Source: Opitutales bacterium
Lineage (GTDB): Bacteria > Verrucomicrobiota > Verrucomicrobiia > Opitutales > Seribacteraceae
DNA length: 64,000 nt
Direction: 5' to 3'
NCBI GenBank assembly: GCA_028045305.1
Contig: JAOFTV010000004.1
Location: forward strand, 62,001-126,000
Position 1 is the first letter of the stretch. Each line of letters starts with the position of its first letter. The position numbers and the translations under genes were made by a program. This document shows, one piece after another, positions 13,206 through 15,391 of this stretch. Below the pieces are notes generated by a model. That model was not told where the DNA came from. It searched no databases and worked only from the letters and a program-made list of their open reading frames with translations.

Positions 13206-14069
13206 GTGCCAAAGTTAATGTTTGTCATTTCTTTTCTCCTTCTTTTTACCTCTTTTTTGGTTGGAAGCGTGGCTCCCAATCCCTTTTTGCGACCTGGTTC
13301 AAGAAAACCACCACCTCCTTCGCCTCCTCCACAACCACCAAAGCCACAGGTGAACCCTGAAATCTTTAAAGAGGTAGAATTCAGAGGATTTTTTCTCCTC
13401 AATGGTGTGCCTCACTTTTGTATTTTTAATAAAAAGGCCAACCTTGGAGAATGGATCAGGTTGTCCGAAAAGACTTATGAAGCATTTGAGGCGGAGTCCT
13501 TTGATTTGAAAACCGAAACCCTCACTTTGGCATATAATGGCCAAAAGTATACTTTTTCTTTAGAAGAGTCCAAGGGGGGGAGTTCTGGCAAGACTTCTGC
13601 ACAGCAATCTTCCATTCCAAAGCTTCCAAAGCCAACGGGTGGAAATACATCAAGTAGAACAAAAGTTATGCCCCCCAAGCCACTTTCAACGCCCAAGCTC
13701 CCAGATTGGCTGGTTCAACGCTCGAAACAATCAAGCCTTGGATCTTCAACAAATCCCGGAAGGCCTTCATTTATTAATTCTTCCTCTAGCAATCGGGCTG
13801 TACTACCTGGTATGATCCCAACTAGGAATGCTCCTAAATCGGGAATTGCCTCAGCAGTCGGAGGAGATGTGCCTACCGTTCGTTCAACCGTACCATCGAG
13901 CCCGAGTGGGATTTCCAGTTCATTCCCTTCCTCCCCTTCCCCAACTAACAACTCTTTCTCGAACAGTTCCGGAAATTCTTCACCCGGGTCTGAATTGAAT
14001 TCTCAGGCAGCCGATCAGGATGGTGAGATTGATCTTAGTTCTCTTCCTCCCCCCCCCACCTCCTCCTAA
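13206..14069 (+). CDS. Pro/Ser-rich secreted protein; ORF ends just after a C9 tract
   Basis: 287 aa; likely start at ATG 13218 (MFVISFLLLFTSFLVGS); Pro/Ser-rich; ends LSSLPPPPTSS. Confidence 0.65.
   Translation: MPKLMFVISFLLLFTSFLVGSVAPNPFLRPGSRKPPPPSPPPQPPKPQVNPEIFKEVEFRGFFLLNGVPHFCIFNKKANLGEWIRLSEKTYEAFEAESFDLKTETLTLAYNGQKYTFSLEESKGGSSGKTSAQQSSIPKLPKPTGGNTSSRTKVMPPKPLSTPKLPDWLVQRSKQSSLGSSTNPGRPSFINSSSSNRAVLPGMIPTRNAPKSGIASAVGGDVPTVRSTVPSSPSGISSSFPSSPSPTNNSFSNSSGNSSPGSELNSQAADQDGEIDLSSLPPPPTSS
14049..14057 (+). repeat. poly-C homopolymer (C9)
   Basis: cctccccccccca: nine consecutive C near the 3' end of the Pro-rich ORF. Confidence 0.95.
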
Positions 14070-14113
14070 TATTTTACCCCCCAGTGGCCCACCAAATATT
14101 GTACCATCAAGGG

Positions 14114-15391
14114 ATGAGTAGATGTATATTATTTACCTTCCTTGGACTATTCGTCTTAAATCTAAGTCATTTTGGTGAAAGGAGAATAGGCAAACTTTAT
14201 CATGAGAGTTGGGAATCTTATTTTGCTTTGGGGGCCAATGATTATCCTCACTCTCCATCCGAATCGACTCCTGATTTTTCCCCCGTTGGGGTATTGCTTT
14301 CTCGTTCTGGAACCGTGGGTAGTGGAACTTTAATTGCTCCAAATGTTTTGGTTACAGCTGCACATGTTCTACGCAATTCTTTTGCCGATGAAGTAAATCC
14401 AGCCGATTGGGAATTTTTGCTCGGTTCGAATGAAGATTGGACTACTTCGGAGGGAAAAAATAAAGTAAAACATATCCTTCTTCACCCAGGATGGACTGCT
14501 CGTCAAAATCGATACAACCGATTTGGGGATGGGGACGAATTGGGTGTTGATGTGGCTCTAGTTTTTTTGGATCAACCCATAGACGGGGTTTTCCCCGCTA
14601 GAATCCCTGAAAGTAACGATGATCCACTTGGGGAAAGAGCGGTACTTGCTGGATATGGCACATTGGTTGAGGGCATTAATGGAAAGCGTTTAGAGTCCAA
14701 TCAAAGAAGAGTAGGGGGAGAAAACATTTTTGATCGTTCAGTTCCCAAAGTTGTTAAAGAAGGAGTTCCGGATTCTTATCTTGGAGGATTATTAGCAATT
14801 GATTTTGATTCTTCTTCCAGTGTTCACAATACATTAGGAGAGGGCAAAAAGGGGTTGGAGCTATTGGGAGAAGGCCAAAGCGATTTAGCTCCTTTGCCCT
14901 TGGAGGCAACCACTGCATATGGAGATAGCGGAGGTCCTGCCTTTGCCCGTACTCAAAATGAATGGCGAGTTCATGGTGTGGTTTCATACGGGACAAAAAA
15001 TTCCCGCTATGGAGATGTTACTGTATTTACACGGTTGTCATCACATTACGATTGGATCATGGAGAACTCTCCTTCATGGCCAAGCGCCCGTACAATTGGT
15101 TACGAGGATTGGCGCGAAAGTTCATGGTGGGGTATTTTTTTGCCTAAGATAAATGATTGGTACTATCATATCTCTCTTGGGTGGGTTTTTATACCAGATC
15201 CATCGGGCGATTCTTTTTGGGCCTGGCACATTTCTCTTGGATGGATATGGTTTTCCTCACAAGTACACCCTTTTTTGTATGAGCAAAAAACTTCGAATTG
15301 GTATTACTTGAGCACTGAACAGTCCGTCGGGGGTAGAATTCTTCTTTATAATTACGCCTTAGAGGTGTGGGAATATGTGCACGCCAATTGA
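14114..15391 (+). CDS. trypsin-like serine protease with Trp/Tyr-rich C-terminal repeats
   Basis: LVTAAHVL (His), GDSGGPAF (Ser); signal peptide MSRCILFTFLGLFVLNLS at 14114 (track start 14084); C-terminus WYYHISLGWVF..FWAWHISLGWIW. Confidence 0.85.
   Translation: MSRCILFTFLGLFVLNLSHFGERRIGKLYHESWESYFALGANDYPHSPSESTPDFSPVGVLLSRSGTVGSGTLIAPNVLVTAAHVLRNSFADEVNPADWEFLLGSNEDWTTSEGKNKVKHILLHPGWTARQNRYNRFGDGDELGVDVALVFLDQPIDGVFPARIPESNDDPLGERAVLAGYGTLVEGINGKRLESNQRRVGGENIFDRSVPKVVKEGVPDSYLGGLLAIDFDSSSSVHNTLGEGKKGLELLGEGQSDLAPLPLEATTAYGDSGGPAFARTQNEWRVHGVVSYGTKNSRYGDVTVFTRLSSHYDWIMENSPSWPSARTIGYEDWRESSWWGIFLPKINDWYYHISLGWVFIPDPSGDSFWAWHISLGWIWFSSQVHPFLYEQKTSNWYYLSTEQSVGGRILLYNYALEVWEYVHAN

Follow-up and report, generated by a model that had tools for sequence, protein, structure and literature searches.

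In long-read assemblies, the residual error met most often is a homopolymer that is off by one base (PMC8442456), and poly-G/C tracts within genes of Campylobacter are described as phase-variable switches (PMC4965091). In Blochmannia, housekeeping genes carry homopolymer frame errors for which rescue by slippage has been proposed (PMC3017870), and a run of eleven A (A11) in tssM of Citrobacter is dealt with in the same way (PMC4256274). Here we consider a C run in a window of 64,000 nt from an Opitutales bacterium (assembly GCA_028045305.1, contig JAOFTV010000004.1, positions 62,001 to 126,000 of the forward strand), where the count of one base decides how a secreted protein ends and how it meets the gene downstream.

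The run consists of nine C (C9, 14049-14057, + strand) and lies in an ORF for a Pro/Ser-rich secreted protein (13218..14069, +; 283 aa from the ATG at 13218, with a GTG at 13206 also possible as the start). As assembled, the frame reads into DLSSLPPPPTSS, with the final residues LSSLPPPPTSS and a stop at 14069. With one C removed, the frame reads LPPPPPPPNILPPSGPPNIVPSRDE to a stop at 14121, giving the C-terminus DLSSLPPPPPPPNILPPSGPPNIVPSRDE and the stop codon TAG at 14119-14121, and with ten C's the ORF would join the frame of the downstream protease, so that the three frames at the run lead to three distinct outcomes. A C9 run is not unusual in this genome, which holds 17 C/G runs of nine or more. 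A preliminary description of the locus gave its sequence facts, namely the run and the two alternative endings, correctly and proposed three possible causes for the apparent slip: a phase-variable homopolymer, programmed or transcriptional slippage, or a sequencing or assembly indel.

The proline-rich tail in the shifted frame

The gene was found in 41 of the 57 genomes searched, some of which have only a shorter paralogue. Those relatives that have a name are Opitutia, Opitutales and Verrucomicrobia MAGs, among them one of a Caspian set and another of the TMED set, and we take them to be marine or brackish, judging from isolate names. In the genus and the family, the protein carries L-P7-[ND]I.PP[STG][PA]PP[NDE]I.P at its C-terminus, capped by a short charged stretch, a pattern present in all 20 of the uninterrupted copies, i.e. 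those not broken by a contig end, an N run or a frame error. Each of these 20 copies has exactly seven prolines, a number that the window gene reaches only with C8, and comparison with the homologues indicates that C8 is what the family frame requires at 14049..14057. The shifted frame over 14058..14121 (+) completes the P7 and then continues as NILPPSGPPNIVPSRDE to its stop, which is the ending of the 20 homologues. The suggestion in the preliminary description that the shifted frame restores the C-terminus is therefore borne out by the homologues, none of whose 20 uninterrupted copies is without the tail.

The pattern of divergence within the tail agrees with this. Between the window and 23 homologues, the differences fall 74, 46 and 201 times at codon positions 1, 2 and 3 of the shifted frame, and the codon differences comprise 153 synonymous and 74 non-synonymous changes; since they are mostly synonymous and at third positions, the shifted frame appears to be under selection as protein. 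The length of the C run at this site ranges from 2 to 9 in the relatives, where it is usually interrupted by CCA, CCG or CCT, and therefore the family has no conserved slippery site. In the relatives, the zero frame itself encodes the tail. Among them we found neither a conserved slippery run with its frame arrangement, which is the mark of programmed slippage, nor a homopolymer kept at the same site in the orthologues, which is the mark of phase variation. Judged from this comparison of homologues, the tail is real and the true end of a conserved protein.

In one further genome (G023, locus L009, about 2300-2380), the same gene has a proline run of C6 where C5 fits, i.e. one C extra. Two other loci were considered as further breaks of the gene and set aside, L003 since its genome (G007) is frameshifted throughout, and L025 (G013) since it holds an N run. 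N runs cover the proline run in L012 and lie inside the Ser/Pro-rich linker in L025, which suggests that this region is hard to assemble.

A putative PilP/GspC-like protein and its neighbouring protease

The tail gene and the protease gene adjoin each other in the relatives as well as in the window. The protease (14114..15391, +) is a secreted trypsin-like serine protease of the S1 type with a C-terminal Trp-rich domain, and its Pfam Trypsin match scores 68.7 bits against a cut-off of 20.6 (E 8.7e-19). Its ATG at 14114 opens MSRCILFTFLGLF and overlaps the tail stop by 8 nt (ATGAGTAG, 14114..14121, +), confirming the overlap reported in the preliminary description. Among the 15 loci in which the protease was recognisable by an R[RK]IGK-type motif, an ATG or GTG lies exactly 8 nt before the end of the tail stop in ten and 11 nt before it in three, so that 13 of 15 share one of the two spacings, and each of these starts is followed by a signal-peptide-like stretch. 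The occurrence of the P7 tail in every uninterrupted copy, together with the 8- or 11-nt overlap in these 13 loci, argues that both the tail and the coupling are real and not a product of chance; as stop/start pairs that overlap usually behave in this way, the two genes are probably translationally coupled. The Trp-rich domain occupies the last ~100 aa of the protease (15059-15388) and contains LGW... repeats. It had no match in Pfam, and it recurs at many loci, both here and in related genomes, where the open frames reach about 4,700 aa; perhaps it is a shared surface or sorting domain.

In the AlphaFold2 model of the tail gene product, residues 53-114 (13374..13559, +) form the sole confident domain, a small six-stranded beta domain of PilP/GspC-HR-like appearance with a pLDDT of about 90, in a chain that is otherwise of low confidence (mean pLDDT of the chain 60.5). 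The best Foldseek matches in the PDB are PilP structures (3jc8_Pa, 2ivw, 2lc4 and 4av2_M), with probabilities of 0.90-1.00 and E values of only 0.008-0.5. No Pfam or NCBIfam family, including the PilP and T2SSC models, matched the protein, and the matches to the poly-Pro segment of huntingtin that came up in a sequence search of the PDB (E 0.01-0.5) were discarded as compositional. The shorter paralogue, which lacks the tail, is present across the order. In the congener G005 it lies between the genes for the secretin (GspD) and T2SSE/T2SSF, and in G120 it adjoins a secretin gene. A GspC-like component would be expected in just such a place, and thus the window gene is best read as a PilP/GspC-like duplicate. 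Unlike the short paralogue, the window gene does not lie in a secretion operon; it sits beside the protease, between crcB and an ABC exporter-like permease. Apparently, then, it is a diverged duplicate of the PilP/GspC-like component of a type II secretion operon, and its product may have a role in the export or control of the protease. The beta-domain gene was also seen in a relative from another family (G085, L252, 788-1819), where the C-terminus is again long and Pro-rich but ends differently.

Long G/C runs and the origin of the ninth C

The 17 G/C runs of nine or more were examined along with about 855 kb of sequence, the frame state being judged by open-frame tests, since a codon-usage scan gave too few scorable sites. 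Thirteen of the 17 lie in genes, and the frame is broken at nine of these 13. The nine genes are the window gene itself (C9, 14049..14057; C34:76049-76057), a porin-like gene (L031), a gene for a SIS-domain, KdsD-like isomerase (L032, C9, C2:45600), a large secreted protein (L033), monomeric isocitrate dehydrogenase (L034, G9, C8:21276), the ribonucleotide reductase large subunit (L037, G9, C11:15975), a ThuA-like gene (L039, G10), a sulfatase-GDSL gene (L043) and a glycosyltransferase-like gene (L044); for KdsD, ThuA and glycosyltransferase, the name is our own reading of the sequence. Every broken run is off by +1, and in all nine the frame is restored, with a sensible joint, once a single base is taken out. 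The isocitrate dehydrogenase is present in a single copy in the assembly and is split exactly at its G9 (profile positions 1-323 and 321-733), and the only large subunit of ribonucleotide reductase that we found is broken at a G9 between its two ATP cones. The in-gene runs that remain in frame are at L038, L041, L042 and L046, and the run at L045, which is intergenic and precedes a lipoyl-synthase-like gene, was not counted as a break. The longest run in the list for this genome, a C12 (L040, 1323-2093; G000:C22:6774-6785), lies right where a CMP-sugar synthetase-like gene ends. At a length of eight, all three C/G runs and 36 of 37 A/T runs are in frame.

In the congeners, all 26 clear in-gene runs of nine or more are in frame, in a list that is not exhaustive and leaves out a few ambiguous runs, and the contrast with nine broken of 13 here is significant (Fisher p 3.4e-6). 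The ThuA-like gene makes the same point in one pair of sequences, being intact with G9 in the congener G007 and broken with G10 here. Candidate frameshifts amount to 2.5 per 100 kb here, 0.9-1.3 in G005 and G006, 7.2 in G023 and 19.6 in G007. In the last of these, the apparent frameshifts (~20 per 100 kb over L003 and L067-L076) are mostly at short runs, and they include a protease split in three. General sloppiness of sequencing was rejected as the explanation for the present assembly: over 281 kb covered by homologues, the C9 site is the only one backed by more than one homologue, and the genes around the window's other candidate frameshift positions (38.6-41.3 kb) are intact.

The interpretation that best accounts for these findings, and which we consider very probably correct, is that C9 is a one-base overcall and that the real gene has C8 and encodes a coupled PilP/GspC-like protein with the conserved tail. 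The gene with C8 would produce a secreted protein with the beta domain, a disordered Pro/Ser-rich linker and the tail L-P7-NI.PP.PPPNI.PSR[DE], whose stop overlaps the start of the protease, so that the pair would probably be translated in a coupled manner. The ninth C would be an overcall of run length in a metagenome-assembled genome, and the same overcall would strike G/C runs of about 8-10 throughout the assembly. An artefact is the most likely origin because the same +1 excess splits unrelated housekeeping genes at long G/C runs; a switch or slippage at one gene does not predict the breaks in isocitrate dehydrogenase and ribonucleotide reductase, whereas a length overcall predicts all of them. 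We infer that the excess base was introduced during sequencing or assembly and has no counterpart in the cell. Two observations count against this reading: the assembly is clean outside long G/C runs, so that a narrow error mode must be accepted, and G023 also has its extra C, though in an assembly whose general frameshift rate is higher (7.2 per 100 kb). Of the three causes proposed in the preliminary description, the sequencing or assembly indel is thus well supported by the +1 breaks in housekeeping genes and the intact runs of congeners, and the other two gained no positive support.

Under phase variation, the C run would mutate at a very high rate within the living population, with C8 switching the tail and translation of the protease on, C9 switching them off and C10 fusing the ORF to the protease frame. 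The length of C9 is within the range of the Campylobacter switches (PMC4965091), the three frames do give distinct outcomes, and G023 offers another genome with a one-base discrepancy at this very place. Nevertheless, we regard such a switch as very unlikely, as the C run is not maintained in the relatives, the long runs of the congeners are in frame, and the defect, always +1, is shared by housekeeping genes, none of the other affected genes being of the contingency type.

Slippage, transcriptional or ribosomal, on a true C9 would yield both a short and a tailed protein, with poly-G/C frameshifts being tolerated generally, as in Blochmannia. The precedents in Blochmannia and Citrobacter give this proposal its appeal, but the known cases involve A/T runs, for Blochmannia in AT-biased genomes, while here the relatives encode the tail without any conserved slippery run and the runs of eight or fewer, A/T runs included, are in frame. 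We consider it extremely unlikely. Hardly more can be said for the broader version, to which we give equally little credence, in which about two thirds of the organism's long coding G/C runs, some in essential genes, truly have one base too many and full-length proteins are made through transcriptional slippage, the coupled tail modulating protease output; if true, it would parallel for poly-G/C what ant endosymbionts show for poly-A. That a real one-base insertion was recently fixed in this strain and truncated the protein takes the assembled sequence at face value, and the downstream protease is intact, but this is highly improbable, given the codon-level constraint kept in the tail and the identical +1 excess in eight more of the long G/C runs, essential genes included, which would need eight further fixed lesions.

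Most likely, then, the one-base slip at C9 is not a real feature and not a genetic switch, and claims of phase variation or slippage at any G/C run in this assembly are unsafe. Once the run is read as C8, a conserved but unnamed protein of Opitutales-type marine bacteria regains what would be its true end, and the fixed P7 tail and the protease overlap point to a secretion-linked pair of protein and protease that apparently goes back to a type II secretion component.

Comparison with described systems

The tail gene product resembles PilP and the GspC HR domain of type IV pili and type II secretion in being secreted, in its small six-stranded domain and in having PilP as its best matches. It differs from them in having no Pfam match and no fold match in the PDB with E below 0.001, and in its long Pro/Ser linker, P7 tail and protease neighbour. 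With the phase-variable poly-G/C genes of Campylobacter jejuni, the locus shares a coding G/C run of nine; the difference is that here the run is not conserved, housekeeping genes are equally hit and the offsets are all +1 (PMC4965091). Blochmannia (PMC3017870) and Citrobacter tssM (PMC4256274) offer a parallel in the homopolymer frame errors of otherwise conserved genes, although theirs are A/T runs and those here are G/C. The reading that we favour, an overcall, finds its likeness in the homopolymer indel errors discussed in the Trycycler paper (PMC8442456), where one-base errors likewise truncate predicted proteins, the present assembly being distinct in that the probable errors affect only G/C runs from about 8 upwards and always add one base.
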